Source of the DNA: Cantharellus purpuraceus
Lineage: Eukaryota > Basidiomycota > Agaricomycetes > Cantharellales > Hydnaceae
DNA: 64,000 nt
Direction: 5' to 3'
NCBI GenBank assembly: GCA_025174535.1
Contig: JALBUN010000010.1
Coordinates: forward strand, 558,001 to 622,000
Shown here: positions 28,871 to 49,761 of the stretch, one piece after another
Position numbering within the stretch: the stretch's first letter is position 1
Layout: the number at the start of each line of letters is the position of its first letter
Position numbers and translations under genes: made by a program
The notes under the pieces: model-generated
What the model saw: the letters and a program-made list of their open reading frames with translations, nothing else
What the model was told of the DNA's origin: nothing
Databases searched by the model: none

Positions 28871-29450
28871 TGTGTCCCAGAACTGCCAAGCAACTAACAT
28901 CCAACAGAGTTACATAAAAAGTAATGGAGTGGGTTTCTCCCATAGGAAAACAGAGTGGCAAGTTGATTGTGGATTTAATAACAGAGTTAGAGGATCCATT
29001 GAAGAGCCATAATGGAATTGGAGTGATGTCTTCAGTCCAAAGATGATGTCTGGAGACAAACAAAGAGTCAAGGAAACAATGAGTGGAACCAGAGTCCACT
29101 AGAGTTGGGATCAGAGTTAAGGGGATGAGATTGGAGGTGAGTCGGAGTGTCAAGGAGTTAGGATCTGAAAGAGTGGATGCATTGAGATGTAGCTCCACAA
29201 AGGCACCGATGAGTTCAACGCAACCCTTGTCTGGTGCCAGAGTTGGAGGGTTGCTGGTTATTTTTTTGGCTCCATAGCCTTGGCTTTGGAGCTCTTGTCG
29301 GACTTGTTGTTCATCATAGCAGCACGAGCTTTCATAGCTGCTGAGGTGGTCTTCAGACAATCCTTGGCAATATGACCTACTCATCCACAAAAGAGGCAGA
29401 GGTTCTGCTTGATATAACATTATTGTTCCTGTGGAGTAAGTTTACCATCT
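28870..29450 (-). mobile_element. Ty3/gypsy fragment: zinc knuckle and aspartic protease (-)
   Basis: Read on the minus strand: a knuckle at about 29400-29355 (LCLFCG, stop, VGHIAKDC) with an in-frame TGA inside it, then a Lys/Ala-rich linker and a retropepsin domain with LVDSGSTHCFLDSLFVS, IPLWLFNGSSNSVI and SCLAVLGH. The match to the gypsy protease stops at about 28870. Its upstream continuation is the gag fragment at 47442-49163, separated by the 18-kb inserted unit; CATCT is present at both edges of that unit (29446-29450 and 47442-47446). Confidence 0.75.
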
Positions 29451-29764
29451 TGTTAATGGGTGTCTTAGTTCACACCATTGCACAGAACTCAACCAAGTGT
29501 ATTGGTTGGGCAATGTAGTATATAGCTAGATAGTTATAATTAATGTATGCAGCATTCCATTAAGGAATGCTGTCTTCTTGATAGATATATGCGCCCATAG
29601 GGTGCATATGTATAGGTATTATGTAAGCCAGTGGACCCAAGTACACATGTGGGTCCACATATAGTAGACAGAACTTAGTAACTACCACACTGTACAGCAC
29701 ATCACCCAACCAATACACTTGGTTGAGTTCTGTGCAATGGTGTGAACTAAGACACCCATTAACA
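29451..29764. repeat. Foldback left terminus: perfect 60-bp inverted repeats
   Basis: 29451-29510 (starting TGTTAATGGGTG, ending ATTGGTTGGG) is the exact reverse complement of 29705-29764. The 194 nt between them, read in reverse complement, match the right-hand terminal repeat at 47224-47415 (for example GGACCCAC, GGGTGCATAT, GCATTCCTTAATGGAATGC). The left end is therefore the first 60 nt of the terminal repeat joined to an inverted copy of most of it. A complete, directly oriented terminal repeat is missing here. Confidence 0.85.
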
Positions 29765-31101
29765 GAACTTCCAAAGGAAGAATCAACTGATTCTTCCTCA
29801 TTATTGAAGTTTTCTAGTCAATACTAGAAAACTGGCTGTTGCTGGTGTACAGAAGTATACCAACCCCCCCAGTTGCTCATATAAGTGAGCAACTAGTAGA
29901 CTAACTTAGTTAGCCTACAAAGATAGAAGAAAGAAAGGAGTCATCATAATGATGACTCACAGTAGAGTGAGTCATGCTGGCAGGACATCATAAATGGTGA
30001 ATGGTGGCATGTAGCCAGCAGGAGAAGCTCCCAGGAAGGGGAGCTAGACCCTAGAGAAGTCACAGGGACTTCTCATAAGGAAGACTCTAGAAGAGAGTTG
30101 CCATGATCACAAGACCACACAGATGATCACAATAGATCATCTGTCGAACAAGAACCCTTCATCGAGTGGTTCTTTGATTAGAGAAGAAAGGAGGAGACAG
30201 TCATCCACTGTCTCCAATGTTCCTAAAGGAAAGGAACATGCTCAATATACAAGCACAAGTAGAAGTAGCAATACTTCTACTAGGGAATTGTGTGTCAAGA
30301 ATTCACTCGAGAATTATCATGACTTACTGGAGTAAGAGGGAAGAGATGTATGATAAGAGAAAGGTGCAAAAAGATTAGGGATTTTAGTTAAGGGATGGGG
30401 AGGAGGTCATTTTTGATTTTATTCTGTGAGCCCTCCTTTCATTCTACGGGGGCAGTTACTACTCAAAAAGGGGGATATTATAATGACATTAATTCGTCGT
30501 AAATCTCAAGTTAAACAGGTGAAAATTCACTTCTCTGTAAAAGGTTTTTTCTTTATGACATCACATATTACAATTCTCTGTATCATTTATCTTCATTGGT
30601 TTCATCATCATTTATGACTCGTTTTCCATGTGATTATTAAAATGTATATTATGGTATAGCTACATACCATAATCACATTGGATTCACTGATTTTAATCCC
30701 TTCCAAGCTGCAAACAAACAGCTTGTGTCAATTGTCTGTCGGTCCTGGAATAACTCCTAAATGAGTTATTCAATCTCAGATCTTTTGCATATCCAATTAG
30801 GATATTGCACCATCTAGTTCTATCTCACATTATGAACGATTTGGACCATTGGGTCCATTTATATTAAGCAAACACTTTCTCGAAATGTTGCTGTTCCCTA
30901 TTTCTGCTTAAATATTTCGCAGAATGTCCAGTTCTTAACCAAATCACCTGAAATTTGGTGACAACATCCTACTCGAATATATATAACATATGAGTGTGCA
31001 TACATCATCCTCCATGCCCCAATAATACTCCTATTTGATTTCTACTCAGCATTCACCCCCTGCCTTACACATATCACACTCCTCCTTATTTTCACCTAAC
31101 A

Positions 31102-31692
31102 TTGTGCAGCATGGAGTGGTGTGAAACCCACAGGTCAATTGCAAGATTGACTGAACAACTCATGTGTAATCAACATGAGATGAAGAGCATTAGCGAAGCT
31201 AGTGCTCAGGCAGCTAAGATGGCTGCTGAAGCAGGGCATGCTGCCACTACTATGGGGCAGCAAATAGCAGAGCTAGGAATGATGTTAAAATCACTCCAAG
31301 AGAACTCTGAGCAATGCAAGTTGTGTTGCCAAAGATCAGATTCTTGACAAGAATCTGAATCCAGAGAGTCTTGACCTCCCTGGGGTGAGAGGGTCCAACC
31401 GAATGATTGGATAGACAGAGGAAATGAAATTCCCCCAATGGAGGGAATTAGAGACCCAGTAATCCCAGCAAGGCAAGGATTACTGATCCAGATTGAAGAG
31501 GAAACTCCTCAATCTATGGCAAAGGAGCTCAATCAAGAGATTGAGCTATGGAAACAACAAGAAGTTGAGGCTTCTTGTAAACATAGATCAGCCCTCGAAC
31601 GGAAGGCTAAACATGCAGAGCAAGAGCTTGGCCAGCTGTTTAGAGAGCAGCAGTCCCAGCAAGAGCTCAATGTGGCTGTCAATTTGAATTGA
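31102..31692 (+). CDS. Hypothetical coiled-coil reading frames inside the hairpin unit
   Basis: Two plus-strand open stretches, 31102-31347 (MCSMEWCETHRSIARLTEQL...) and 31438-31692 (MEGIRDPVIPARQGLLIQIE...), have strongly helical, charged composition (for example LEETPQS-like, ERKAKHAEQELGQLFREQQS) suggesting coiled coils. Stops lie between them, so they are either separate small proteins or one broken gene. No family is recognised; a Gag-like structural role is possible but unproved. Perfect inverted repeats such as CAGATTCTTG/CAAGAATCTG and CTGTCAATT/AATTGACAG run through the coding sequence. An LTR-3'-end-like segment follows at about 31886-31968. Confidence 0.35.
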
Positions 31693-31879
31693 CAGTTGGT
31701 CAGTTGGTGATATAATATGTCATGTGACCTCAAAGAGCACTTGCGCATGAGTGAACAATGTGCATATTACATAAGCAGTGGAGTTCATGCACTTCAGCCA
31801 AAAGCAGCCACAGAAGGTTCTGACACCTTTCTGGACCTTCCACAAGGTTCTCTGGCCTTCTCTTTCCTTTATCAAGAAA

Positions 31880-31970
31880 GCATTCCTTAATGGAATGCTG
31901 CATACACTGATTATAACTATCTAGCTACATACTATAGTAAGTAAGTACCTTGGGTACTTAAACCCTCCCC
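31880..31970 (+). repeat. Internal copy of the hairpin unit's terminal-repeat 3' end
   Basis: The segment with GCATTCCTTAATGGAATGC, TATAACTATCTAGCTA and GTAAGTAAGTACCTTGGGTA closely matches 47360-47438, the end of the right terminal repeat, but finishes TACTTAA in place of TACTTACA. It suggests that the left part of the unit may itself contain two related elements side by side, or an old internal terminal repeat. Confidence 0.65.
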
Positions 31971-32382
31971 TTTTTGAATGAGGCATGATCTCATTCAGTA
32001 CCTTTTAATCATACAGCTCCTTATGAAGCTGTTCTGATGAGTCAGTGTCCATATGGTCATCTTGTTCATATGGCTCTGGAGGGGGATGGCTCTCAGTCAT
32101 CCCCAATGTGGTTGTGGTATCCTCATCCACTTGAATAGATGAGGAGGATGCAATTGCTACTGCAGCATCCTGATCAAGTTCACGAGTAAGTTGATTGTGA
32201 CCTAAATGCTCAGCAAGAGAGCATTTAGCAGCTTTATGAGCTGCTTGGGAGACTCCCTGAGTCTCCTGCTTTTGCTTACCAACCCTGGTGGGCTGGTTAA
32301 ATGCTGCTCTGGAGGCGATGCATTTAGCAAACTCCTCTAATATAGCAGCATGATCGGGGGTGATGCCTCCCGATCGTCCAAA

Positions 32383-33387
32383 TCAGAGTGCAAGCTCTAA
32401 TTCAGTATGTTCTTTGGGGGAGTGATTCCCCCAATCATACACTCCAGTGACTGAAGTGCAAAAGGTGTCACCAAGAGTTGGTGAGAACATTTGACCACTG
32501 GTCAATAATCCCCAGTGGCCAGGATTCTGGAACATACTCCAGAGGTTCTTCTTAAATACAGAAGAACCCTTCTTGGGAGTGGCCTTTTGTAGCCACATCC
32601 AGACATCCACATTGGACAGGTTCATAGTACCATCCAACTCCTGTTGGATGGCCGGGGGGATCCCATTAGGGGTTACTTGCCACCCCTGTATGAGGGCAAG
32701 TGTGTCTACCAGTGTGGTCGGTAGAGTGACAATAAGACTCGTGTTATCAGCACGAGCCAGTAGAGTCATTCTCTTGATGACTCTGCACATCAGTACAGTC
32801 TGTTCCATGAATAGCATGGCCAATGCCTTTTTATGGAGTGATACAAACTCCAGAGTGTCCATATTGCAGATGTTGAACCAGAGGTTGCAGCAGGTGGCCA
32901 GTGACTGCTCTGGGGGGGTCAGCTACAGTCATGAACCACGGTGCCCATTTGGGGAATGATTTCCCCACATTGGCATGCTTGAGAGCATGCCCAAAATCAT
33001 CCCAGCATTTGTGATAATTCATATGCTGGGCTTCCTCCAGCATTGAAGACGCTGGATCTTTTAAGGTACAGCTGGCATCACCAGCCATATATTCCTTTTG
33101 AAGCTGATCAATCTCAGCTTCAATTTCTGATAGGGCAAACTCTTTGAGTTTGCCCGGTTGCTTAGCACCCTTGGGGATGCTAGCCAGGAGGAGGCCACGA
33201 TTGTGGTTGTATCCCTCCCAGATTGGGTTGGTGTTGTCCCAATCTTGACCCTTGAACCCTCAGGGATTGATCCAAGGCAATTTGCTTGGGCAATTGTCCT
33301 CTTTGGTGAGATCGATTGTTTCCCATGATGATGAAGCCATGGGCTGTGATGGCATAATGGCAGGCAATGATTTGCCTGCCATAGCAC
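32383..33387 (-). CDS. Hypothetical minus-strand gene inside the hairpin unit (frame broken)
   Basis: Three consecutive minus-strand frames give protein-like sequence: 33387-33061, then 33088-32831 (MAGDASCTLKDPASSMLEEA ... NYHKCWDDFGHALKHANVGK ... FPKWAPWFMTVADPPRAV), then 32862-32383 (LHKKALAMLFMEQTVLMCRV ... VTLPTTLVDTLALIQGWQVT ... GSSVFKKNLWSMFQNPGHWG). They read as parts of one protein with one or two frame changes or introns near 32850 and 33070. No known domain is recognised, and no DDE, RT or tyrosine-recombinase signature is seen. Perfect hairpins lie within the coding region throughout, which puts an unusual double constraint on the codons. This is a candidate for the protein proper to the unit. 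Confidence 0.4.
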
Positions 33388-33549
33388 GTGATAGCAATGC
33401 TACTGGGGCCAAGTGGTCTTGAATGTAGGAGGTGCTTTATTAGCAGCCTCCTTCAGTGTTTTTAACTTGTCTCTGAGACAAGTTACTTTGGACTTCTCAT
33501 TGTCAAGAAGTCCTTTGAGTTCTTGGACCTGTGCAAACAGGTCCAAGTT

Positions 33550-34980
33550 TGTATGGGAACCACCTTTTCCCTATCAAATTCCATTTATGCAGCACCAATG
33601 TGCTATTCTTTGCTTTTCCATTCCTAAATATCCGCATATATTTGATGCTTGTACCTGGAATGGACTTATTCAAATATTCTCTATTTTTCCATATTTTTCT
33701 GGGAATATTCCATGCAGAACTCAGCTCAGAATCATTTATTTCTGCTGTGCTACAGTTGTGGACCCATAGGCGCCCACAAACCTTCGCGCAGCCGGCTCTC
33801 CCCTTTTGGACCAGGCATTTGGCCTCAATTCAAGCTCAGATGTCTCTGATCAATAAATATTCTGTAACTTAACAACCACAGCCTCTCAGGGCACTATTTT
33901 CCGTGGAGATCATCACATGACATGTGGCTATCCATGGCTGTCCAAACCAGTGCAGAAAACAGGGTGGACACCCTTCTTTTTGCCTGATCAGTGCCTAGCT
34001 CAGGGATCAGATCAGCTGATGGGTGATCAAATCAGGTGATTGCCTTGGAATATTCTACCCCTTTCCATAACATTCTAGCTGTTTCCTTCTATTATTAGAT
34101 AGAACTTTCCAGAACCATTATTCAGCTCCTGATCAGTGTTAGTGCTGTGATCAGATCCTGTGATTGGCTTGGAATATTCTACCCCTTTCTTCCACCTTCC
34201 ACAACCTTCCAGTAGCTTCCATCTATTAATAGGTAGAATATTCCAGAAGCATTAGTCAGCCCCTGTAAATACATATATAAGGAGGCCATTCTGCCTCTGA
34301 AAGAAGAACATATCCATCATATTCTACCCATCTTCTGCACACCAGTGTGACTAGAGTGACATACAGTGTCATCCTCTATCTCAGTAACTGTTGATTACCA
34401 GTTCAAGGATCTTTTACAGTTGTGTAACTGTACTTGATTGCACTCGAAGTAGTGATATTCCTGCTTTGGGCGTGAGTGTAGTATCTGCCTCACGTGACTA
34501 CGAATCTACAGGGTGAGATTGTCTGTCGATAGTCCTGCCATTAGTGCTCTTGTTTAAGTAACTAGTGTGTACTGCCTTTGCAGAGCATTAGAAGCTTGAA
34601 CTCGTGTGAAGCAGTTGCTAGACTACTTCACACATCGCTGTTACCCGCTTCTGAGTGCCACTGGTTGGACGGTTGGATTCATCCACCTACTTCCTTTAGC
34701 CTCTAAGTGCATTCCCTCTTTTTGGAATATCTGGACCCCTAAGCGTCCGTGAACTCTAGACTCTGGAAGTCTTATTCATTTCTTGCTGCTAAGAAACGTA
34801 TTACCTTTCTGCGTATAGTCTGCATTGACCAATACAAAGGATTGTAACCAAAGTACAAACGTTAAATCGTTTCTGGAGTTGTGCTGCAGCAGGGTTTGAT
34901 ATTCTTCTCAGCTGTTCATTCACGGAATTGTGGTGATTTAGAGTTTGCCCTAACACCATAATTTTGCGGGTTCCAAAACA
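33550..34980 (+). repeat. 5' LTR of the chromovirus
   Basis: TGTATGGGAACC to GGTTCCAAAACA, 1431 bp. It contains ATACATATATAAGGAGGCC (about 34267), a TATA-box candidate for the element's promoter. The terminal 12-mers are imperfect inverted repeats. Open frames inside it are not genes; they recur in each LTR copy and have no element function. Confidence 0.95.
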
Positions 34981-35278
34981 TTTGGTGGACGCTCTGGGAA
35001 TTGCTTAAGCAGTGTCTAGAGTGTAGATTCTAAGCACCATTGCAGATATAACCCGACCTTCTATCACTAAGTCTTTACTCAATATAGTTTCTCGTAATCT
35101 GGAACAAACCGATTTGGAATTTCCAGAAGACAAGTTCTATAGTCACACTCGTCTGCCCTCCTCCTCTAATCCTAACTCTCCTCTTTATCTAAACCCTTAT
35201 CCAACACCAACTCGTATACAAACTCGTTTTGAATCGTATCGACCTCGTGACAAGTTGACCTCATTCAAGCTGAGCAAC

Positions 35279-38200
35279 ATGTCTACTTCAACAATTCGAC
35301 AACAACAACAACTCGAGGACGACCCGTCTACTCCTTTGGCTGCTCAACCAGAGCGACCTATTGCCCCTATCACTCCTGGCTTCTTGCACACTAGATCCCC
35401 GCTCACTCCTGTGAATGATCTTGACCAGACATTTACTACGGATGAAGAGATTAGTGCTGCTGATGCCTCTTTTGCTGTGGAAGTTGATCAGACTAACCAT
35501 GCACTTACCAATTGGACTTTTGATGGACCCCTGATCACAGGACCATTACAAAATGTCTTCGTAGTGCCTGGTAAGCCTTTGAAAAGCTTCAGTGCAGCAA
35601 GAGTACGGAGAGAGGTCAGACTTGATCCCCTACTCTCTTCCAGAAGAGATTCACTCCTTAGCATTGCAGAGATGAGCTTTAATCGTGCGGAAGCACCAGG
35701 TACTAGAGCTCTGAATCGTCTTGCTACTGGACTCTTCAGGAAAGAATTAGCGTTACTCAATGTGGTACTGCTCGGACATCCTGGACGAGTTAGTCAGCAT
35801 GGTAGTACGGGGTATTATCTTGATCCATGGAAGTATAAGCAACTGTTAGACACTCTTAATCATATTGCAAATGAGAGAGAAAGTGTTCTGCAGCAGATGA
35901 AACTTCCTCCTCCTACTGTCCCTACATTGCCTTCGGAATGGCCTAGTGACTCCCTTTGGAGTTCCAAAGACCTGGAAGTGCTTTGTGTTACACTACGTGA
36001 AGATGTAGAAAACTTTTTGGCATTTTATTGGGATGCTGTATCCAAGTACAAGGGTTCTTGGAAACCAGTAAAGGATGACTTTCTGTCTCCTGCTCTCCCA
36101 GACATTTCTGAGATGTCTTCTGACATTAATGGTTTCAAAATTCGCTTCGCTGCTGCCCAAGCTGCTTTGCAGAGAAAGGTTGCTGCGGATACTAGTTTTT
36201 ATGAAGCTAAAGTCATTAATGCATCGGTGAATCCTGTCCTTGGACATGATCTTCCCACTCTTGCAGCTATGCCTGTCAGGGATGCTCAGCAGTCAACTGT
36301 TGCCTATACTGTTAAGGAAGCTCCTTTGATTTCCAGATTGGATCAAGGAGAAAAATTTCCAGTTGATCATGAACGGATTAGACAGAGACAGTCTGCGGTT
36401 TACAACCGTGGTCCCAGACCCTCTACTCTTTTCAATTCTCCTTACCATCAGGATCCTAGTAAACTTACGGGATCTGCAGGTTTGGAAGAAATGTTCTATA
36501 CTCCTCCTCAAGTTCAGAGCAGGGGTACTTTAGGCATTCCAGAATCCATTAGGGTTCCTCACGGAACTTATGGAGCTTCTGGAGGAGGTGCTCCACCTCC
36601 TGGAGGAGAACCTCCTGATGATGACGGATCATCTGGTCCCCCTCATACACCTAATCCATTTTTGCCTAGACCATCATTGCCACATAGAAGTGGAAGGAGT
36701 AATCCTCCCCCTCTGGGTAGGCATGGAGGCTCAGGTCCTCCTGATGGAGGTGATGGTGGAGGTTACGGTCATAGTCCAGACTGGGGGGATCTTGATCAGA
36801 GAAATCCTAATCTCGGATTAGACGCTCCAGTGACTCAGAGCAAGCTGGAAGCTTACTTTGATAACAAGTTGCGTCAGGACTTAGTCCCTGAGTGGGATGG
36901 AAACCCTGACAGTTTGGCTCAATGGATATTGAAAGTAAATCATTTGGCTCAGCGATCTCCTATGGTCTTCAAGCAATTGGGACAAATTATCCCTTTGAGG
37001 TTGCGTAAAGGAGCTGAGAGATGGTTTTTCTCCTTACCATTGTCATATCGCCAAGAAGCAACTGAGGACTGGAAGTCCATCAGAGAAGTCATTGGTTCAT
37101 ACTATATGAACAGAGCCTGGTTGGATAGGCAGAAAGCTAGAGCAACTCGTGCTACTTTCAGAGAGCCTGGCTTTACTAATGAGACTCCTAGTGAGTATTA
37201 CGTTAGAAAGTCAGAGCTATTGAGACTGGTCAGCAAGCTGTCAGACTCAGAGCTTATATTGGAAATCATGAATGGTGCTCCACCATATTGGCACACAGTC
37301 ATTGATGCTCACAGGTGTTCATCTGCAGTGGAATTCCAAACTGCTATCAAGTATCACGAGGAATCATTGTCACATGCTCCTTTCTCTTCAGGAGACAACC
37401 TGGAAAGACGTATTAGAAATTTGGAAAATTCTTTGCATCAAACCAAACCTAGGTTTGACTCGAACAGATCTTTTAGAGATGCTAGAGCTCATCTGGTTGG
37501 ATGGTCATCCAAATTGAATCCTCCAAAATTCCCTCGGGATGATTCTAATGTGTCTAAAAATTCCACACCTGAATCCAAAGGAGCTAGACCTTGCAGGCAT
37601 TGTGGCAGTAACAAGCATTGGGATAATGAGTGCAAACATGCCAGTTCAGCATCTCGCTCTGCCCATACACGTTACACGGTTTCTAATGAAGAAGCTAATG
37701 CAGACCTTGCCTATGAGGATATGTACCTTGAATCACTTCATGAATCAGAAGTGGATTTAAGTTCAGACAATGCTCATGTTAATAATGTTGCAACTGAGAA
37801 TATCCCTGAAGAACCTTCATCGGATCAACAGGAATCTGCTCAGGATACAGAGGCACATTGTCAACTTGCTAAACCAGCCATGAGCTTGCTGGAAAGTATG
37901 TCCCGACTGGGGGGATCCATACCTAATAGAGAAAAATCTTCTGAGCCTTTGTCTCTGGAAAACTCTTTTTCTGAGACATTCACTCCTAAATCTCGTCAAG
38001 AGAGGAGAAGGTTAATGAAAGATTCCAAACATGTAGCTGCTTTCCTAAGGAATTCTAAGCTTACTAGTTGGGCTCCTAACTCCTTGATTAAACTCAAGCG
38101 TTTCATGTCCAGACCAGCAGGCTGTGCCTTCCTTGGATCTTCTGCAACCACTACTAATGTTTGGCTGGGAGAATATGGAAAGAATCAAACTACCCTTGTA

Positions 38201-41200
38201 GCTGATTCTGGTTCAGACATAACCCTTATCTCTCAGAAAGCTCTTTGCTCTATGGAGAATCCTCCTAAGATCAAAACAGGTCAGAAAATTAACTTGATAC
38301 AAGTTACTGGCACATCCAAAATTTCTGGATACGTTACGGTGCCCATTTACTTTGACTCTGACTCTGGACCAGTTCAGATTGAAGTTGAAGCTTATGTGGT
38401 CAAAGGCATGACTACCCCTGTCATTCTTGGGAATGATTTTGCTGATCAGTACTCTATCTCACTTATAAGAGAAGGCTCAGATAGCTATCTTATGTTTGGT
38501 AATACTGGACGGAAAGCCAAGATTGAGAACTCAGTGAGCTCACCCTTATTGGATGAGAATGGTCACACCTTTAAAATAAGAGCCCTTCCTGACCTTGCAT
38601 CTCTAACTGCAAAGTTCAAGGCTCATAGACGTATTAAGAAATCTCGGAAACGGATTAGAGCACGCATTTCGGATTCAAGTGTTAGGGCCTTACATCCCGT
38701 CACAATTCCTCCTGAAACTGCTTCTCTAATTCCTGCTTCTATCTATTTCCCTGGGAATAGTAATGAAGTTTATGTGGAAAAAGTGCTTCACTCCAATCAT
38801 GGGCCTGAAGATTTCTATGGCATCTCAGATGCAATTGTATCTCGGAATAACCCGTGCCTACATGTTAGCAATTTTTCATCACAACCAGTTACTATACATC
38901 AAGGACAACTTCTGGGTCATGCTAGAAATCCTTCCAATTGGCTGGATCGGACTTCTAATTTGAACCAGACTCAATTAGAGACTTGTCTCTCTCACGCCAG
39001 ACTCATAAAAGCTCTTGCTCAACAGAACTTTGAGACTGGTGCGGTACCTACTGTTGCCTCTCTTGAATCAGATGGAGAGGTGGTACAAGGAGGACCTAAG
39101 GCTCAGGAAATTCCCCCTGAGGATGTTCCTGAAAACCAACTGTTGGATGAAATTGACTTCTCACCAGAGCTCAATGATGCCAATAGGAAGGCTCTCCAAG
39201 ATACAGTTCTGGCACATAAAGACGCATTTGGTCTTGATGGCAGACTTGGCAATTATGATGCAAAAGTTGAAATCAATCTCAGGCCTGAGGCCAAAGAAAT
39301 TTCACTACCTCCTTATAATGCCTCACCTGCCAAAAGGGAAGTCATTGACAAGCAAATGGATGCTTGGCTCAGTCTTGGAGTCATTGAACCATCCAAAAGT
39401 CCTTGGGGTTTTCCAGCACTTATAGCCTATCGTAATGGGAAACCAAGAATGTGTATAGACTATAGGAAACTCAATGAGATTGCTGTCCCAGATGAATTTC
39501 CCTTGCCAAGACAAGATTCCATTTTGCAGGCACTCACTGGATCTCGTTGGTTATCCACCTTGGATGCATTAGCGGGTTTCACACAGCTGCAAATGTCGGA
39601 CAGTGCCAAAGAAAAAACTGCATTCAGAACTCATAGAGGACTGTATCAGTTCAAACGGATGCCCTTTGGGTATCGGAATGGACCTGCAGTCTTTCAAAGA
39701 GTGATGCAAGGTGTCCTAGCACCTTTTCTATGGGTGTTTGCCCTGGTCTATATTGATGATATTGTCATATATTCCAAGACATTCAAAGAACACTTGGATC
39801 ATCTAGACAAAGTGTTCGGAGCTATAGAAAAGTCTGGAATCACCTTATCTCCTGCTAAGTGCCATTTGGCCTACCAGTCATTGCTACTGTTAGGACAAAA
39901 GGTATCACGGTTAGGTCTATCAACTCACAAGGAGAAGATAGATGCTATACTGGAATTGGCAGAACCAAAGAATGTGCATGACCTACAAATCTTCCTCGGA
40001 ATGGTGGTATACTTCTCCTCATATATACCATTCTATGCATGGATTGTAGCTCCCTTGTTTGAATTGCTCAAAAAGAATTCAACTTGGGAATGGGGCAATA
40101 CTCAACAAGAAGCCTTTGATTTGGCTAAAAATGCCCTTGTCAGTGCGCCAGTCAGAGCGTATGCCATTCCTGGTCTCGGATATAGAGTCTACTCTGATGC
40201 ATGTGATGTCGGAATCGCTGCTATACTTCAGCAGATTCAACCTCTCAAAATCAGAGATCTCAAAGGTACCAAAGGGTATGAGAAACTCAAATCAGCTTAT
40301 GACAAAGGATTACCTGTACCACAATTGGTGATTCCTGTGTTAAAAGATGAAACTCTCCCTAAGCCAGGTACTTGGGATAAAGACTTTGAAAACACTACGG
40401 TTTCAGTAGAACGAGTCATTGCTTACTGGTCTCGCACCTTGAAACCAGCTGAAAGGAATTACTCTCCTACAGAAAGGGAGGCGCTTGCATTACGAGACGG
40501 TCTTATCAAATTTCAACCCTACATTGAAGGGGAGAAAGTAGTAGCCATCACAGACCATGCAGCCCTCATCTGGAGTCGGACCTACCAAAATGTTAATCGG
40601 CGGTTATTAACTTGGGGAACTGTATTTGCTGCATACCCTGAATTAAAAATCGTACACCGAGCAGGACGGGTTCACTCTAATGTAGATCCTATTTCCAGAC
40701 TCAGAAGGAATGTTCCATATCAAGATGGGCCTTCTTCTGATGACTCCATTCCTACTATCCTGGACTCGGAACAGGATCCACTTGTGGATTTTTATTCTGA
40801 TATCTCTCCTCACTTTGAAGCCAGAACTTTAATGTTAATGGCTGCATATGAAGAAGAGAACCAGAGAATTCCACTGAACGTGCATGCTTCTTCCATCCAA
40901 GTCAATACCAGCCTGGAAGAAGATTTCACCATTCCATACGTGACAGCCAAAGGCTATAATCTAGTCTCTAGCCTTGCTCAGGAAGAGATTCAGAAAATAG
41001 TTGATGCGTATGCCAAAGATCCTTACTTCAAAAGGGTCAGATCTGAATTACGACAGGAGTCTAATTGGATCAGTCCGAAGCATCCACTCTTTTTTGAAAA
41101 TGAGGATGGATTGCTTTACTTTGAAGATTGGAATGGCAATTACAGGCTATGTGTACCCAAGGCTGAGCAATCTAATCTTCTAAGTGAAATTCATGATGAA

Positions 41201-42577
41201 ATCACTGAAGGAGCTCATGCGGGTTATCATAAAACGTACAACAAACTGGCTTCTACCTTCTATTGGCCTAGAATGAGTAGAGATGTCAAGAAGTTTGTTG
41301 TAAGCTGTGATATTTGCCAGAAAGCCAAACCAAGGCGACACGCACCTATTGGACTGTTGCAGCCCATACCTATTCCAGAAAATCCTTTTGAAGTTATCAC
41401 CATGGACTTCATTATGGAATTACCCGAGAGCAATGGGTACGATTCCATCCTGGTGATAGTGGATAAACTTACAAAGTTTGGCATCTTTGTCCCTACTCAA
41501 AGCACTATTAATGAGGAGGGAACTGCTCGGATACTGTTTGAACATGTGCTATCCAAATATGGAATTCCCAAACAAATTATATCCGACAGAGATCCCAGAT
41601 GGACCAGCACCTTCTGGAAAGAGATATGCAAGCAAATAAATACTAGAAGAGCTCTAACTACAGCCTATCACCCTCAAGCAGATGGTCAAACTGAGGTGTT
41701 GAACCAGACGCTTGAAACCGCGCTACGTTCTTATGTAAGCCCGACGCGCGACAACTGGGCGGCTCTCCTCTCTCCATTTGCTCTATCCTACAATAACCTC
41801 CCACACCCCGCGACTGGATTCGCGCCGGCATTTCTACTGTATGGCTACCATCCACGCACTCCATCTTCCTACATTCATTCATCTACTCACGGCGTTCACC
41901 GGCCTTCCAGCCCGCCGGCCCCACGACCAGTTGGATCGGTCGATCGCGTTGATTTAATCAAGTCCCCTGCCAATGAAGTTGAAAGTACGAAAGCTATGGA
42001 CTTCCTAAGTGAATTAGCTACTTACCGATCTCAGGCTAGAGAAGCCCTGCAATTTGCGCAGGTTGCTCAGCAAAAGAATTTCAACACCGGTCGTCTGGCT
42101 CAAGAATTCGACGTTGGCGATCGCGTTCTCATCAATCCCCATTCCCTCAGTCTATTGCATGCTCAGAAAGGCCTAGGTAAGAAGCTCCAAATGAAATACG
42201 ATGGCCCCTTTGATATCATACAAAAATTAGGGCCGGCTACCTATCGCCTTCGCATGCCTGCGTCATACGGGCTCCACCCTGTCCTTAACATCGCTCACCT
42301 CGAGCTCTACTCCTCCTCACCCCCTTCCTTCGGTTCACGACCTCTCAGATCTCTCGAACGCGCTGATTTCACGCAACTCCCGGAATTCGAGGTCGAGTCC
42401 ATCATCGGTGAACGATGGCGAAAGGCCCGTAATGGCCGGCGTGTCCAGGAGCTCCTCACGCGTTTCATCGGATACGACTCATCATATGACGAGTGGCTCC
42501 CGCGAAAGAACCTTCGCAACGCTCCCGACCTCCTTCGCGATTGGGATCGACGCGATCGGGATATCTCTCGCCACTAG
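35279..42577 (+). CDS. Gag-Pol polyprotein of the chromovirus
   Basis: One uninterrupted frame; the first in-frame ATG is 35279 (MSTSTIRQQQQ), although the frame is open from about 35027. It encodes about 2,430 aa. Gag spans roughly the first 780 aa and ends with a CCHC knuckle (CRHCGSNKHWDNEC, 37592-37633). Then the aspartic protease (VADSGSDITLISQ, Asp codon at 38204), reverse transcriptase (FPLPRQDSILQALTGSRWLS, LVYIDDIVIYSKT near 39750), RNase H (YSDACDVGIAAIL, TDHAALIW), an integrase with HHCC residues (H-AGYH, C-DIC), catalytic MDF, ISDRDPRW and QTEVLNQ, and a C-terminal chromodomain (FEVESIIGERWRKARNGRRV ... YDSSYDEWLPRKNL). Gag and Pol are in the same frame with no shift. All catalytic residues checked are intact, so the protein is probably active. 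The last ~900 bp are visibly richer in G+C than the rest. Confidence 0.95.
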   Translation: MSTSTIRQQQQLEDDPSTPLAAQPERPIAPITPGFLHTRSPLTPVNDLDQTFTTDEEISAADASFAVEVDQTNHALTNWTFDGPLITGPLQNVFVVPGKPLKSFSAARVRREVRLDPLLSSRRDSLLSIAEMSFNRAEAPGTRALNRLATGLFRKELALLNVVLLGHPGRVSQHGSTGYYLDPWKYKQLLDTLNHIANERESVLQQMKLPPPTVPTLPSEWPSDSLWSSKDLEVLCVTLREDVENFLAFYWDAVSKYKGSWKPVKDDFLSPALPDISEMSSDINGFKIRFAAAQAALQRKVAADTSFYEAKVINASVNPVLGHDLPTLAAMPVRDAQQSTVAYTVKEAPLISRLDQGEKFPVDHERIRQRQSAVYNRGPRPSTLFNSPYHQDPSKLTGSAGLEEMFYTPPQVQSRGTLGIPESIRVPHGTYGASGGGAPPPGGEPPDDDGSSGPPHTPNPFLPRPSLPHRSGRSNPPPLGRHGGSGPPDGGDGGGYGHSPDWGDLDQRNPNLGLDAPVTQSKLEAYFDNKLRQDLVPEWDGNPDSLAQWILKVNHLAQRSPMVFKQLGQIIPLRLRKGAERWFFSLPLSYRQEATEDWKSIREVIGSYYMNRAWLDRQKARATRATFREPGFTNETPSEYYVRKSELLRLVSKLSDSELILEIMNGAPPYWHTVIDAHRCSSAVEFQTAIKYHEESLSHAPFSSGDNLERRIRNLENSLHQTKPRFDSNRSFRDARAHLVGWSSKLNPPKFPRDDSNVSKNSTPESKGARPCRHCGSNKHWDNECKHASSASRSAHTRYTVSNEEANADLAYEDMYLESLHESEVDLSSDNAHVNNVATENIPEEPSSDQQESAQDTEAHCQLAKPAMSLLESMSRLGGSIPNREKSSEPLSLENSFSETFTPKSRQERRRLMKDSKHVAAFLRNSKLTSWAPNSLIKLKRFMSRPAGCAFLGSSATTTNVWLGEYGKNQTTLVADSGSDITLISQKALCSMENPPKIKTGQKINLIQVTGTSKISGYVTVPIYFDSDSGPVQIEVEAYVVKGMTTPVILGNDFADQYSISLIREGSDSYLMFGNTGRKAKIENSVSSPLLDENGHTFKIRALPDLASLTAKFKAHRRIKKSRKRIRARISDSSVRALHPVTIPPETASLIPASIYFPGNSNEVYVEKVLHSNHGPEDFYGISDAIVSRNNPCLHVSNFSSQPVTIHQGQLLGHARNPSNWLDRTSNLNQTQLETCLSHARLIKALAQQNFETGAVPTVASLESDGEVVQGGPKAQEIPPEDVPENQLLDEIDFSPELNDANRKALQDTVLAHKDAFGLDGRLGNYDAKVEINLRPEAKEISLPPYNASPAKREVIDKQMDAWLSLGVIEPSKSPWGFPALIAYRNGKPRMCIDYRKLNEIAVPDEFPLPRQDSILQALTGSRWLSTLDALAGFTQLQMSDSAKEKTAFRTHRGLYQFKRMPFGYRNGPAVFQRVMQGVLAPFLWVFALVYIDDIVIYSKTFKEHLDHLDKVFGAIEKSGITLSPAKCHLAYQSLLLLGQKVSRLGLSTHKEKIDAILELAEPKNVHDLQIFLGMVVYFSSYIPFYAWIVAPLFELLKKNSTWEWGNTQQEAFDLAKNALVSAPVRAYAIPGLGYRVYSDACDVGIAAILQQIQPLKIRDLKGTKGYEKLKSAYDKGLPVPQLVIPVLKDETLPKPGTWDKDFENTTVSVERVIAYWSRTLKPAERNYSPTEREALALRDGLIKFQPYIEGEKVVAITDHAALIWSRTYQNVNRRLLTWGTVFAAYPELKIVHRAGRVHSNVDPISRLRRNVPYQDGPSSDDSIPTILDSEQDPLVDFYSDISPHFEARTLMLMAAYEEENQRIPLNVHASSIQVNTSLEEDFTIPYVTAKGYNLVSSLAQEEIQKIVDAYAKDPYFKRVRSELRQESNWISPKHPLFFENEDGLLYFEDWNGNYRLCVPKAEQSNLLSEIHDEITEGAHAGYHKTYNKLASTFYWPRMSRDVKKFVVSCDICQKAKPRRHAPIGLLQPIPIPENPFEVITMDFIMELPESNGYDSILVIVDKLTKFGIFVPTQSTINEEGTARILFEHVLSKYGIPKQIISDRDPRWTSTFWKEICKQINTRRALTTAYHPQADGQTEVLNQTLETALRSYVSPTRDNWAALLSPFALSYNNLPHPATGFAPAFLLYGYHPRTPSSYIHSSTHGVHRPSSPPAPRPVGSVDRVDLIKSPANEVESTKAMDFLSELATYRSQAREALQFAQVAQQKNFNTGRLAQEFDVGDRVLINPHSLSLLHAQKGLGKKLQMKYDGPFDIIQKLGPATYRLRMPASYGLHPVLNIAHLELYSSSPPSFGSRPLRSLERADFTQLPEFEVESIIGERWRKARNGRRVQELLTRFIGYDSSYDEWLPRKNLRNAPDLLRDWDRRDRDISRH

Positions 42578-42774
42578 GGCTTCCTCTATCTATGACTCTC
42601 TTATCTCGGCCTTCTACCCTATTCCGTCACCTTCCTAGCTATTCCAAATCCTTTCCCTACTGTTCTATAAACCCAATATCATGATGTCTTCATTTTACTC
42701 AATCCCAACCGCATCTAACTTTTGAAAAACCTCAGCAAATCTTTAGTCTTTCCACCTATCTACTTCTTTCCACT

Positions 42775-43803
42775 ATGGCTAACTACCCTGATGTGTCTGT
42801 CATTGACTTCGTGATTCATAAAGAAAACGATACATATATACAAGGTGGAGTTCCTGTACCTAACTACGGACTCCAATTCACTTCCAACTTCGACTTCTAC
42901 CAACCCAATCGTTTTGACTTCATCTATCTTGAAGCACCGGCAAGTGAGTATGCCATACTACGCAATGACCTTGCCAGCAGCTTCTGGGAGACGTTGAAGA
43001 TGAAAACTCGATACATTCTCGCAGCTGCTCACGGATGGGACGGCGAGTCAGCCCTTGAACCTCTCCCTTCTGAGATTCCTCTTGGAAAGCTCCAGGAGAT
43101 AGATATGATTCCCCCTCCTTTTCCAGCTCGTAACCAACTCTCATTCAACTTCTTCCTCCTCCCAGAGAAACCCTCTGTCATACGTGAATGGATCCGTGCT
43201 TGGCAGAATCAGTCTCGCCAGCTCTCTGCATGGATCTGCAAATCCAAAATCAATAGTGCACGCCTCCCAGGCTGCTCCTGGAGGTGGCCAACTTCACCAC
43301 TCTACTCCCATCCTTTGGATGACGTGTCAGAATTTGATGACGGAATCTCCCAAGCCACTGAGGTGAACTCCACTATATCCGAGTCCTCTCTCCCCTCTCT
43401 CCCAGTCATTCATGCTTTCAGAGCCCATGCTGAACCTGATGGTCTCAAAAGACCCCGCGGGTTGTCCCCTTTCGAGGCCAATCGTGATGGTGACGATGCC
43501 AACAAGAAACAACTTGTGTTGTGGCAACCTTCAGCAACCCAACTTCGAGAGATGTACCTTTCCCTTTCACGTGGATATGTTAGCTCGTACTCTGCTCCCA
43601 CATCTTCTATCACCACTCCTCCCAACTCACCAGCTCCTCCTCCCTATCACAAAAACTCAACTCACTCCTATGATCCTCGAGTTCCTAAACCTATATTGAC
43701 TCGTCGGACTCGACTCACGACTCGTGTGTTCAAAAATCCTTATGCCATGGGTAACTCTGGAGGATATGAGAGGACGGAAGTGAGGAAAGATGTGCGTGAC
43801 TAG
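42775..43803 (+). CDS. Extra 342-aa reading frame in the env position of the chromovirus
   Basis: An intact ATG-to-TAG frame starts 197 bp after the Gag-Pol stop and ends 32 bp before the 3' LTR. It starts MANYPDVSVIDFVIHKENDT and has a protein-like N-terminal part (NYGLQFTSNFDFYQPNRFDF, ETLKMKTRYILAAAHGWDGE), a Trp-containing middle (SVIREWIRAWQNQSRQLSAW) and a disordered Ser/Pro-rich C-terminal half with SPAPPPYHKN, then basic PILTRRTRLTTRV. There is no signal peptide, membrane helix or furin-type site, so it is not an envelope protein. No family is recognised. A PPxY motif in a retroelement protein recalls late-domain or WW-ligase recruitment, but that is inference. Frame preservation in a young element suggests it is used. 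Confidence 0.7.
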   Translation: MANYPDVSVIDFVIHKENDTYIQGGVPVPNYGLQFTSNFDFYQPNRFDFIYLEAPASEYAILRNDLASSFWETLKMKTRYILAAAHGWDGESALEPLPSEIPLGKLQEIDMIPPPFPARNQLSFNFFLLPEKPSVIREWIRAWQNQSRQLSAWICKSKINSARLPGCSWRWPTSPLYSHPLDDVSEFDDGISQATEVNSTISESSLPSLPVIHAFRAHAEPDGLKRPRGLSPFEANRDGDDANKKQLVLWQPSATQLREMYLSLSRGYVSSYSAPTSSITTPPNSPAPPPYHKNSTHSYDPRVPKPILTRRTRLTTRVFKNPYAMGNSGGYERTEVRKDVRD

Positions 43804-43835
43804 GTCAGGGAAAGAATATTTGAAGGGGGGATGAA

Positions 43836-45267
43836 TGTATGGGAACCACCTTTTCCCTATCAAATTCCATTTATGCAGCACCAATGTGCTATTCTTTGCT
43901 TTTCCATTCCTAAATATCCGCATATATTTGATGCTTGTACCTGGAATGGACTTATTCAAATATTCTCTATTTTTCCATATTTTTCTGGGAATATTCCATG
44001 CAGAACTCAGCTCAGAATCATTTATTTCTGCTGTGCTACAGTTGTGGACCCATAGGCGCCCACAAACCTTCGCGCAGCCGGCTCTCCCCTTTTGGACCAG
44101 GCATTTGGCCTCAATTCAAGCTCAGATGTCTCTGATCAATAAATATTCTGTAACTTAACAACCACAGCCTCTCAGGGCACTATTTTCCGTGGAGATCATC
44201 ACATGACATGTGGCTATCCATGGCTGTCCAAACCAGTGCAGAAAACAGGGTGGACACCCTTCTTTTTGCCTGATCAGTGCCTAGCTCAGGGATCAGATCA
44301 GCTGATGGGTGATCAAATCAGGTGATTGCCTTGGAATATTCTACCCCTTTCCATAACATTCTAGCTGTTTCCTTCTATTATTAGATAGAACTTTCCAGAA
44401 CCATTATTCAGCTCCTGATCAGTGTTAGTGCTGTGATCAGATCCTGTGATTGGCTTGGAATATTCTACCCCTTTCTTCCACCTTCCACAACCTTCCAGTA
44501 GCTTCCATCTATTAATAGGTAGAATATTCCAGAAGCATTAGTCAGCCCCTGTAAATACAATATATAAGGAGGCCATTCTGCCTCTGAAAGAAGAACATAT
44601 CCATCATATTCTACCCATCTTCTGCACACCAGTGTGACTAGAGTGACATACAGTGTCATCCTCTATCTCAGTAACTGTTGATTACCAGTTCAAGGATCTT
44701 TTACAGTTGTGTAACTGTACTTGATTGCACTCGAAGTAGTGATATTCCTGCTTTGGGCGTGAGTGTAGTATCTGCCTCACGTGACTACGAATCTACAGGG
44801 TGAGATTGTCTGTCGATAGTCCTGCCATTAGTGCTCTTGTTTAAGTAACTAGTGTGTACTGCCTTTGCAGAGCATTAGAAGCTTGAACTCGTGTGAAGCA
44901 GTTGCTAGACTACTTCACACATCGCTGTTACCCGCTTCTGAGTGCCACTGGTTGGACGGTTGGATTCATCCACCTACTTCCTTTAGCCTCTAAGTGCATT
45001 CCCTCTTTTTGGAATATCTGGACCCCTAAGCGTCCGTGAACTCTAGACTCTGGAAGTCTTATTCATTTCTTGCTGCTAAGAAACGTATTACCTTTCTGCG
45101 TATAGTCTGCATTGACCAATACAAAGGATTGTAACCAAAGTACAAACGTTAAATCGTTTCTGGAGTTGTGCTGCAGCAGGGTTTGATATTCTTCTCAGCT
45201 GTTCATTCACGGAATTGTGGTGATTTAGAGTTTGCCCTAACACCATAATTTTGCGGGTTCCAAAACA
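43836..45267 (+). repeat. 3' LTR of the chromovirus
   Basis: TGTATGGGAACC to GGTTCCAAAACA, 1432 bp, virtually identical to the 5' LTR. It is preceded by the purine tract AAGGGGGGATGAA and followed by GTTGTTCCTGTGGAGTAAG, which is gypsy gag sequence also present at about 29422-29440. Confidence 0.95.
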
Positions 45268-46267
45268 GTTGTTCCTGTGGAGTAAGTTTACCATCTTTAC
45301 CTAGCTTGGTAGAGAGGTCAGGGGTCTGCTTTGGAGTTCCAGAGGTAGAGGTTGTAGGGGGGTTGGATCTGGGGTTACTGGATTTACTGGAGTTGGACTG
45401 CTTCTTGTTGTCGCTGCCCTGGGTGTTGGAGGAAGAAGTGGACTTGCCCCTGTTGTGGGACTTGTCCTGATTCTTGCCTGAGGAGGTCTCTCGAGCTACC
45501 TTGGAGCATCATTCCCAGTACCGAGCATCAATGGACTGTACCAAAGTCCTGAGTTTGGATAGGGTGATGGGTTTGCCTACTCTGGCAACTTCATCCTTGA
45601 TTCAGGATGGAAGGCCATTGTATAACTGGCATCGGAGTGCAGTGTTCCCCCATTGGACACAAGCAGCTAGTCGATTGAACTCAACTAGATACTTAGTGAT
45701 CCTCTGGTTATCACACATTTGGAGATTCTCAAGTTCAGCCTCAGCTTCAGCCTCCAGGTCATGAGGTCCAAAATTGGTCTTCAATTCAGACATGAACTCA
45801 GAGTAGTTGTCTAGCCAAGAGGCTTCAGAATCGGAGGTCAGGGTGGGTTCAAACCAATCAAGTGCAGTTCCTTTTAAATAAGATAGAGCATAAGTAACTT
45901 TAGCACTATCATTGGAGAATGCATCAGGACAGTTGCAGAAATTGAGGGTTTATTGTGTAAGGAAGGGCTGGAGTTTGCAGGAATCAGATCTGTCGAAGGT
46001 ATCTGGTTCTCGGACCTTGGTCCAAGCAGAGGACTTCTTCAGAGACGATATGGAGTTAGCCAACATGCTGAGGGCTTCTGCAAGGTTAGAGATTGGGATG
46101 AATGAGGGATTGGCTGGAGGAGTGCCTTCCTGGAGTTCAGCCTCAAGCTCCTGGTTGAATACTGGAGCTTCTCCAGGGACTTCCTCAATAGTGGTGGGTG
46201 GTACTCCCACTTGGATGGAGGTTTGGGTGCTTTGGAGAAGGCATGATGATCGAGGGTAGTAGTTCAT
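45268..46267 (-). mobile_element. Ty3/gypsy gag fragment, copy 2 (-)
   Basis: On the minus strand from 46267 the frame begins near the 5' LTR and encodes a retrotransposon Gag: WTKVREPDTFDRSDSCKLQP, later LKTNFGPHDLEAEAE, MCDNQRITKYLVEFNRLAAC and VQWGNTALRCQLYNGLPS. Stops and frameshifts occur (for example after FLTQ near 45950). It is cut at 45268 by the chromovirus LTR. The same gag is present as copy 1 at 48412-49150. Confidence 0.8.
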
Positions 46268-46273
46268 ATATAC

Positions 46274-46895
46274 TGTTAAGGTGCTGGAATGCTTGGAAGT
46301 TCAAAAGGAGTAACTGGAGTTAGGCTGCTAGTAATAGAGAGGAGTGGGACTTTACTGTTCCAGTTCAACCAGAGACAGAGTGGGAGCAAATACTATTGAG
46401 TCAGATCGAGTGGACTTGGCTTCAACTTGTGTGTTGCGCCCCCTCAGATTGTCGGTCCAATATTTCAGAGTTCGGAGTACAGAGTTGGATCAGGGATCTG
46501 GAGTTCAACTTGTCAAGAAGGTACTTGTCAAGAAGCTAGTAACCAAGAAGTTGATGGGGCAAATCTTAGTCAATATACGAACTACTGTAATAGACAGAAA
46601 GTAGCCCATATAAGTATGTGGAGAATTGAATGCTAAAACTAAAATGAAAAACAATAAGATGGATATGCAGTACAACATGGAAAGGAGTTCAGAGTTTGGA
46701 CCCAAGTCCGAACTATACTAAGCAATATAAAAGAAGGGGTTTGTTGTACCCCATAAGAAGAAACTACTTATGGAGAACAATAAGAAAAGGAGTCCAGAGT
46801 TGATGAAGGTGGAGTTGACAGAGGTGAAGTAGGGAGATGGAGATAGAGTTGGAGATGAAGTCTGGAGATCGGACTTGGTGTTACAGGATGTAACA
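46274..46895 (-). repeat. 5' LTR of gypsy copy 2
   Basis: Begins TGTTAAGGTGCTGG and ends TGTTACAGGATGTAACA. It abuts the gag fragment on the left and hairpin-unit sequence (GCTGGCTACATGC) on the right, so gypsy copy 2 inserted into the hairpin unit. Same family as the solo LTR at 27677-28275. The palindromic end (TGTTACA, three bases, TGTAACA) makes the orientation clear only from the neighbouring gag. Confidence 0.85.
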
Positions 46896-47441
46896 GCTGG
46901 CTACATGCTGCTGTTCATCATTTATGATGTCCTGTGTGCTGCCAGCACAACTCACTCTACTGAAAGTCATCATTATGATGACTCCTTTCTTTCTTCTATC
47001 TTTGTAGGCTAACTAAGTTAGTCTACTAGTTGCTCACTTATATGAGCAACTGGGGGGGTTGGTATACTTCTGTACACCAGCAACAGCCAGTTTTCTAGTA
47101 TTGACTAGAAAACTTCAATAATGAGGAAGAATCAGTTGATTCTTCCTTTGAAAGGTCAAAAAAGTGTTAATGGGTGTCTTAGTTCACACTGTTGAACAGA
47201 ACTCAACCAAGTGTATTGGTTGGGCGATGTGCTGTACAGTGTGGTAGTTACTAAGTTCTGTCTACTATATGTGGACCCACATGCGTACTTGGGTCCACTG
47301 GGTTACATAATAACTATACATATGCACCCATAGGGTGCATATATCTATCAAGAAGACAGCATTCCTTAATGGAATGCTGCATACATTAATTATAACTATC
47401 TAGCTATATACTACAGTAAGTAAGTACCTTGGGTACTTACA
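46896..47441 (+). repeat. Right end of the hairpin unit with its terminal repeat (47164-47441)
   Basis: 46896-47163 is an inverted copy of 29765-30015, with the same hairpins in reverse order (GTCATCAT/ATGATGAC 46966-46982, AGTTGCTCA/TGAGCAACT, GTTTTCTAGT/ACTAGAAAAC). 47164-47441 is a 278-bp terminal repeat, TGTTAATGGG to GGGTACTTACA. It contains hairpins of its own: CAACCAA/TTGGTTG, TGGACCC/GGGTCCA, TATGCACCC/GGGTGCATA, GCATTCC/GGAATGC and AAGTACC/GGTACTT. It ends at the TSD CATCT. Confidence 0.85.
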
Positions 47442-49163: not shown

Positions 49164-49761
49164 TGTTAAGGGCTGGGAACCTAGAGGTTCAATGGAGTGA
49201 CCAGAGTTCAGCTGCTAGTGAAGAAGGGGAGGGGACTTTACTGTTCCAGTTCAACTGGAGACAGAATGGGGCAATAACTATTGAGTCGAATTGAGTGGAC
49301 TTGGCTTCAACTTGTGTGTTGTGCCCCCTCGGATTGTCAGTCTAATATTTCAGAGTTCAGAGTACAGAGTTGGATTAGGGATCTGGAGTTCAACTTGTCA
49401 AGAAGGTACTTGGAAGTTGATGGGGCAAATCTTAGTTGATATACGAACTACTGTAATAGACAGAGAGTAGCCCATATAAGTATGTGGAGAATTGAATGAT
49501 GGAACTAAAAGCAATAAGACAATAAGATGAATATGGAGTATGGCACAGAAAGGAGTTCAGAGTTTGGACCCCAAGTCCAAACTATACTAAGCAATATAAA
49601 AGAAGAAGGTTTGTTGTAACCCATAAGAAGAAACTACTTATAAAGAGAACAATAATGGAGTTTGGGGTTGATGGAGGTGGAGTTGATGGAGAATGGAGAT
49701 GAAGGAGATGGAGATGGAGATGGAGATCCAGAGATTGGACTTGGTGTTACAGGATGTAACA
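49164..49761 (-). repeat. 5' LTR of gypsy copy 1
   Basis: TGTTAAGGGCTGGG to TGTTACAGGATGTAACA, about 598 bp, directly upstream (in minus orientation) of the copy 1 gag. It contains TACGAACTACTGTAATAGAC and AAGCAATATAAAAGAAG, the latter a possible promoter element. It abuts another gypsy fragment at 49762, into which the element presumably inserted. Confidence 0.85.

Follow-up and report, generated by a model that had tools for sequence, protein, structure and literature searches.

Dense short hairpins in a Ty3/gypsy retrotransposon family of the fungus Cantharellus purpuraceus

In the excerpts of published work on which we draw, a well-folded core makes up about 19% of the length of the yeast Ty3 RNA, and a model pairs more of it (PMC11381356), while template switching in DNA replication provides precedent for making and perfecting hairpins (PMC8794818, PMC8604942). 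The nearest parallel to what we describe here is found in the palindromes in the coding sequences of hairworm mitochondria. Our subject is a unit at positions 29451-47441 of a 64,000-nucleotide stretch of the C. purpuraceus genome (contig JALBUN010000010.1, positions 558,001 to 622,000, forward strand; hereafter the window). An earlier examination of the DNA letters (the sequence-only reading) took the unit to be built almost entirely from short hairpins and to represent an undescribed class of element. We confirm the hairpins. The proposal of a new class did not stand: the element belongs to a Ty3/gypsy long terminal repeat (LTR) retrotransposon family present in high copy number in this fungus, and the unit is one of its copies, rearranged and broken. 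No published description of such a hairpin-dense element was found among the titles and abstract openings of open-licence papers that our searches listed.

Hairpin excess and its extent

A hairpin was defined as a perfect inverted repeat whose loop is 0-13 nt long, and counts were compared with dinucleotide shuffles, 100 for positions 29451-33549 and 10 each for the neighbouring DNA (flanks and nested insert). Positions 29451-33549 hold 58 hairpins with arms of at least 7 bp against a shuffle mean of 3.66, 37 against 0.96 (maximum 4) when arms of at least 8 bp are required, and 13 against 0.07 for arms of at least 10 bp. At 46896-47441, the other outer part of the unit, there are 8 hairpins with arms of at least 8 bp against 0.14 in shuffles. 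At that same arm length the left flank (1-29000) has 3 against 6.1, the nested insert (33560-46880) 1 against 4.3 and the right flank (47500-64000) 11 against 5.1; with arms of at least 7 bp the insert has 18 against 11.1 (maximum 18). Apart from the right flank at both arm lengths and the insert at the shorter one, the neighbours are thus at chance level or lower. The right flank shows an approximately twofold excess of its own with arms of at least 7 bp (32 against 13.2, maximum 18). The stems listed in the unit have arms of 6-11 bp that differ in sequence and loops mostly of 1-13 nt, and they are found in its terminal repeats, non-coding parts and reading frames. The sequence-only reading was therefore correct that hairpin density exceeds that of shuffled DNA (37 against 0.96 for arms of at least 8 bp in 29451-33549), that the stems are local, diverse and present in coding and non-coding DNA alike, and that the neighbouring DNA differs, the right flank however being about twofold over shuffles. 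Its delimitation of the unit's own DNA as 29451-33549 plus 46896-47441 holds for the hairpin-rich unit but not for 30293-31101, which is a foreign solo LTR.

The 40-Mb host genome, in which hydrophobin genes point to a fungus, carries many copies of the sequence, and 20 mapped loci belong to one family. Our survey comprised these 20 loci and the window, with the near-duplicate locus L039 dropped, or about 256 kb in all. Family DNA contains 733 hairpins with arms of at least 8 bp in 90.5 kb (8.10 per kb) versus 60 in 157.9 kb (0.38 per kb) of other DNA at the same loci, counts that come from related copies in one genome and are not independent events. All parts read, namely LTR, leader, pol and 3' region, bear hairpins, and along two stretches that were mapped every 200-bp bin has 1-6 stems. 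The pol region of locus L034 is as rich as the remaining element (43 stems with arms of at least 7 bp and loops up to 16 nt, against 3.6 shuffled), in contrast to pol of the window's other Ty3 element, which is near chance (4 against 2.6). Within the loci read, the hairpin excess is restricted to this family. Two short repeats that were marked apart have intermediate densities (16 in 5.5 kb and 6 in 2.5 kb). A recurrent 31-bp hairpin with arms of 11-14 bp lies outside the family at L021:2124, L022:6461, L025:1990 and L035:7386 and is perhaps part of another repeat.

These figures bear on the idea that a host-wide mutational process, or tiny palindromic insertions gathering in old repeats, produced the stems. 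The element copies are indeed decayed and often nested, and hairpins in the window's right flank run at about twice the shuffle level, as such a process might have it. Nevertheless, only 60 hairpins occur in the 157.9 kb of other DNA, stems fall on conserved residues within reading frames, the same stems recur from copy to copy, and inserted copies decay without conversion. We consider this explanation very improbable.

Origin of the stems

The explanation that we favour, tentatively and at rather less than an even chance, is that fold-back copying of arms during complementary DNA (cDNA) synthesis, filtered by protein function, made the hairpins. The nascent cDNA end would occasionally fold back onto an imperfect local inverted repeat, copy some 8-11 nt from the opposite arm of its own strand, then rejoin the template, and imperfect stems would become perfect by this arm copying. 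Changes damaging to the proteins would be purged, so that stems persist where the codons permit, and over many cycles short stems, their outer span about 20-30 nt, would come to fill the element. Restriction to one family in the loci read, local and strand-symmetric Watson-Crick pairing and the lack of upkeep after insertion are all three accommodated by fold-back copying. Of the mechanisms offered by the sequence-only reading, local inverted copying by replication is in our view the best fit, although no event has been caught. The broader proposition, which we advance with somewhat more caution, is of an LTR retrotransposon lineage whose reverse transcription habitually copies one side of a local fold to the other and has thereby turned the genome, down to its protein genes, into perfect hairpins while pol is still encoded.

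The main rival is selection for a folded RNA genome, with a hairpin every 50-60 nt or so serving packaging, protection from decay or shielding from small RNAs, and with stems kept short to avoid dicing. Neither it nor fold-back copying is proven; we regard the folded-RNA explanation as a serious one but on balance rather unlikely. Several features of the stems are in keeping with it. Sense-strand folding is strong, with mean z scores per 200 nt of -4.4 to -4.9 in three copies, arms of 12 bp or more are rare, and loops are slightly A-rich (A content 0.34-0.41 versus 0.33-0.34 between hairpins). Structured viral RNA is also described as evading innate sensing in animal cells, in the excerpt available of that work (PMC3950689). 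On the other hand, the antisense strand folds as strongly as the sense strand: in L034 the mean z is -4.92 for sense and -5.04 for antisense, while the other Ty3 element has -1.17 (sense) and -1.10 (antisense). The pairing is moreover local, the excess falling mostly at loops up to about 16 nt, with no clear excess over longer loops up to 60 nt. The outer span is 19-30 nt in 91 of 94 stems (arm at least 8 bp, loop up to 20 nt), and in four stretches tested there was no regular spacing beyond random placement.

In an RNA selected for its fold, G.U pairs on the sense strand are expected to be tolerated above A.C mismatches. This is not what we observed. Stems with one mismatch comprised 45 with G.U, 59 with A.C and 43 others (the difference between G.U and A.C is not significant), and mismatch sites that agree across copies comprised 5, 4 and 5, respectively. 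Stems with one or two G.U numbered 104 against about 20 in shuffles and those with A.C 154 against about 29, both an excess of about 5.3-fold in the total for six stretches, which include repeated copies of one and the same part, with single stretches varying; region A of the window, for example, has 12 G.U and 6 A.C stems. Single-sided changes lean slightly to A.C over G.U (167/122, and 355/310 and 144/120 in a second analysis). The pairing is therefore Watson-Crick and strand-symmetric without an excess of G.U, and the proposal of the sequence-only reading that the RNA is fully folded is weakened by the missing G.U excess and the missing strand asymmetry.

Selection at the DNA level, acting either on a single-stranded intermediate or on the inverted repeats themselves (for cDNA compaction, cruciforms or protein sites), would likewise demand strand-symmetric Watson-Crick pairing, and the fact that all parts read are affected, the LTR included, is consistent with such selection. 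The arms, however, have no evident common sequence and therefore do not form a simple protein site, the preference for loops of 4-7 nt (59 of 105 stems with arms of at least 8 bp) points to single-strand folding, and no cDNA step known to us would require hairpins in such numbers. We judge DNA-level selection to be improbable.

The relation of the stems to the coding sequence weighs on both fold-back copying and folded-RNA selection. Eight reading-frame pieces from three copies contain 64 stems (arm at least 7 bp) against a mean of 6.3 in synonymous-codon shuffles (maximum 11 of 100). The codon register that ties third positions to each other, and so has the least synonymous freedom, is the rarest (12 of 64 stems). 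This would suit selection on RNA, but the depletion is of modest size, with p 0.012 if a share of one third is expected and p 0.07 if the share in synonymous shuffles is, and a comparison of registers with the other Ty3 frame (arm at least 5 bp) was not significant (p 0.12). Identity to other Ty3 proteins is 33.3% for stem codons, 32.4% for codons between hairpins and 44.7% for loop codons, from 15 alignments with 403 stem and 1397 between-hairpin residue comparisons, after hits above 55% identity were dropped and with the reverse transcriptase piece contributing no hits. That stem codons equal those between hairpins in conservation would also suit selection on RNA. In L034 an 11-bp hairpin is formed by the very sequence that encodes D-G-S...G-A-I, which we take to be the RNase H motif.

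What has happened to the stems since insertion can be followed in the copies, whose differences lie mostly in CG, TG or CA context. At non-CpG sites, changes in a stem were compensated in the partner in 7 of 376 cases (1.9%), versus 2.6% in controls. The sequence-only reading had proposed looking for homologues that keep the pairing while the sequence changes; among copies of this one genome there was thus little or no compensatory change at non-CpG sites, which also tells against selection for a folded RNA, if weakly as regards the past since the copies are decaying. That same limit applies to the G.U comparisons. At CpG-like sites compensation reached 24% versus 12% in controls, an excess that we read as arising because stems were defined in a copy that had itself decayed. 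Region A pairs that vary on both sides (26 pairs) gave 266 Watson-Crick cells versus 253.5 expected, which is near independence. The alignment of region A contains 29 stem pairs that occur in two Watson-Crick forms, of which 25 are in CG context in some copy, as expected of cytosine-methylated repeats.

We also considered stem conservation as a signal (4.9% change in stems versus 8.5% in loops, and 2.8% versus 7.1% at non-CpG sites) but set it aside together with the CpG-like double changes, because the stems had been defined in one copy or a consensus and ascertainment follows from this. When the other copies were compared mutually, non-CpG rates for stem, loop and between-hairpin positions were 3.2/3.8/3.9% with L034 as reference, 3.2/3.7/3.8% with L031 and 3.2/2.5/7.0% with L040; at CpG-type sites they were 15.3/19.5/21.3%, 13.9/20.3/21.8% and 8.0/22.5/15.4%, respectively. 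The lower stem rates at CpG-type sites are taken here as leftover ascertainment, although this is unproven. Hairpin number did not correlate with CpG retained (rho 0.01 for arms of at least 7 bp, -0.20 for at least 8 bp). From these comparisons we conclude that the stems were already present in the active element and have decayed since. With little or no non-CpG compensation in inserted copies, there is no visible sign that ordinary replication in the host forms or maintains stems, and we infer that the hairpins arose or were maintained in the course of retrotransposition. By the same token, copies whose stems predate insertion and have only decayed since cannot show how the stems arose.

Several points weigh against fold-back copying. 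A dedicated search for arm conversions in 52 overlapping segments, all from inserted and decaying copies of this genome, found a copy-specific non-CpG base in 37 of 1065 stems but no stem (0 of 1065) with two or more such bases on one arm, the mark that template switching would leave as clustered multi-base changes restoring a stem. That no arm conversion was caught lowers the odds of fold-back copying slightly. To our knowledge, no property of Ty3 reverse transcriptases accounts for an effect confined to one family. Stem codons are, in the alignments, as conserved as codons between hairpins, with both arms encoding conserved residues, and template switching tends to replace amino acids, as stated in the excerpt available of one report (PMC8604942), unlike what is seen here. 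Finally, inverted duplications with breakpoints at LTR positions 205 (L008) and 212 (the window copy) suggest that strands may switch by fold-back in this family, but they occur in two places only and could alternatively have come from auto-integration or recombination.

The window copy and the structure of the family

With its sense on the minus strand at the intact ends, the window copy starts from 47441 with a 277-bp 5' LTR (47165-47441, minus strand; TGTAAG...TTAACA in sense, by LTR comparison) and a hairpin-rich 5' leader (46896-47164, minus strand, by family matches). It is then interrupted by a nested insertion (33550-46895) that is not hairpin-rich and includes another Ty3 element, whose open reading frame (35114-42577, plus strand) has a chromodomain match just below cut-off, and resumes with the hairpin-rich 3' region (33549-31971, minus strand), which family mapping places from integrase to the polypurine tract and which has reading frames without assigned function. 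The polypurine tract itself, GGGGAGGG (CCCTCCCC on the plus strand), occupies 31963-31970 (minus strand), and the first 89 bp of the 3' LTR follow at 31874-31962 (minus strand; LTR positions 3-89 align at 31960-31874 and the last two bases were placed by eye). After position 89 an inverted duplicate of the 5' part of the element breaks into this LTR, which closes at 29451 with its last 66 bp (positions 212-277, at 29451-29516, minus strand, 94% identical to the LTR at 47165-47441). The target-site duplication CATCT at 29446-29450 and 47442-47446 marks a single insertion event, so that the whole unit did move as one, as the sequence-only reading had held.

The inverted duplication of the 5' part, which thus sits inside the element's own 3' LTR, begins at 29514 with an LTR piece (positions 27-277, at 29514-29764, plus strand, 96% identical in opposite sense). 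It continues with a hairpin-rich leader copy (29765-30292, plus strand, by matches to family copies) and a copy of the beginning of the internal region (31102-31698, plus strand), whose L040 counterpart has an open frame (2671-2988). A stretch at 31699-31873 matches, among the loci compared, only L028:527-697 and the window's own loci. Between leader and internal region lies an 809-bp solo LTR-like insertion with TG...CA ends that is foreign to the family (30293-31101, plus strand; ends and duplication determined by eye). Its target-site duplication is TTGTG at 30288-30292 and 31102-31106, and family copies skip from about 30288-30292 to 31101-31107. This solo LTR has related copies in L025 and L037 at 79-83%, and a few long stems, with arms of 10 and 9, occur within it.

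Another inverted duplication of the 5' part is found at L008:1-3395, with arms 90-95% alike and LTR position 205 head-on to LTR position 1, a junction reminiscent of a fold-back product at what is presumed to be the start of the transcript. The breakpoints at 205 and 212 are close together and may mark the transcript start, where minus-strand DNA synthesis would run out, although this is unproven. Elsewhere in the window, a Copia-type element with gag, integrase and RVT_2 domains in two frames lies at 57182-59921 (minus strand).

In sense orientation the family reads LTR, leader, first frame, gag-like frame (labelled by eye; no Pfam match over cut-off), pol, 3' region, polypurine tract and LTR. 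No undisturbed LTR pair was present in any locus read, and no locus held an undisturbed full-length copy; summing 2913 bp of L040 and 5757 bp of L034 suggests a full length of about 8.7 kb. The LTR is 277 bp with TG...CA ends. Among 18 complete LTRs, again leaving out L039, 11 follow GGGGAGGG (3' type), 6 precede CTTTTTTG or CTTTTTTA (5' type) and 1 is solo. No TGG-type primer site was seen after the 5' LTRs, which continue directly with one of the latter two sequences (the window copy with CTTTTTTG from 47164, minus strand). Besides CATCT, a 5-bp target-site duplication (AACTC) flanks the solo LTR at L021:8651-8925, which lies within pol of a sister copy and is the only one of the 18 with both flanks testable in this manner.

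Over cut-off, the frames of L034 match PF17919, PF17917, PF17921 and PF24626, that is, RNase H, integrase zinc-binding and Tf2-1-like SH3 domains, with the integrase core (rve) below cut-off. The reverse transcriptase frame piece had no Pfam match; its place in the order reverse transcriptase-RNase H-integrase comes from tblastn with the window's Ty3 protein. No chromodomain was found in the frames scanned, from copies that are broken. A protein search with the RNase H piece, in which 150 of 695 candidates were scored, gave 127 matches with at least 63% identity, many of them fragments, and 23 at 26-30%, with none between 30% and 63%. A search of viral contigs with one 114-residue integrase piece found no relatives, and an Rfam scan of L040 and L034 found no ribozyme or known RNA family at the gathering threshold. 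Between integrase and polypurine tract, L034:3935-5746 and the window at 31971-33549 (minus strand) carry a frame of about 600 codons, with stops, an extra gene in env position, of which the scanned pieces gave no Pfam match over cut-off.

Two other assignments were considered. The inverted match of 29514-30019 to 46896-47415 suggested a DNA transposon with long terminal inverted repeats, but this was dropped once the LTR types, the polypurine tract and pol were found. Locus L041 is, rather than an older subfamily, a more decayed copy (78-84% to the others) with stems still present.

Comparison with known systems

The family resembles Ty3/gypsy elements (Metaviridae) with a Tf2-1-like SH3 domain (PF24626) in its TG...CA LTRs, 5-bp target-site duplication, polypurine tract and order of reverse transcriptase, RNase H, integrase and SH3. 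It differs from them in the hairpins throughout the sequence read, the post-integrase frame of about 600 codons with stops and the lack of a visible TGG-type primer site. As a multicopy family it constitutes a natural record of the decay of element-wide hairpins and, together with relatives, of their rise in a coding retroelement.

The remaining comparisons are with systems as presented in the excerpts of the papers cited. Retrozymes (PMC4918200) are likewise LTR-bearing elements with structured RNA, but they are non-autonomous and carry hammerhead ribozymes, whereas here pol is present and L040 and L034 have no Rfam match. The ordered structure of RNA-virus genomes (PMC3950689) similarly involves folding energies well under those of shuffles along the genome; here, by contrast, there are short perfect hairpins, no G.U excess and both strands alike. 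If the folded-RNA explanation is true, we would be dealing with a retroelement folded as short hairpins along its entire length. Template-switch hairpins (PMC8794818, PMC8604942) share the prediction of perfect local stems by arm copying, but are single events in DNA replication, as opposed to an element-wide density in which no single event was caught. If fold-back copying is true, template switching can rewrite a whole genome within protein constraint and goes beyond rare mutation.

The coding palindromes of Nematomorpha mitochondria (PMC6649704) are also perfect inverted repeats in conserved coding sequence with both arms coding, their third-position register is also depleted, and their cause is likewise given as not established. 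They differ in being mitochondrial and in having arms of up to 142 bp, compared with the many arms of 7-11 bp in this nuclear retroelement. Either explanation of the stems described here, fold-back copying or a folded RNA, would bear on these unexplained palindromes of hairworm mitochondria.

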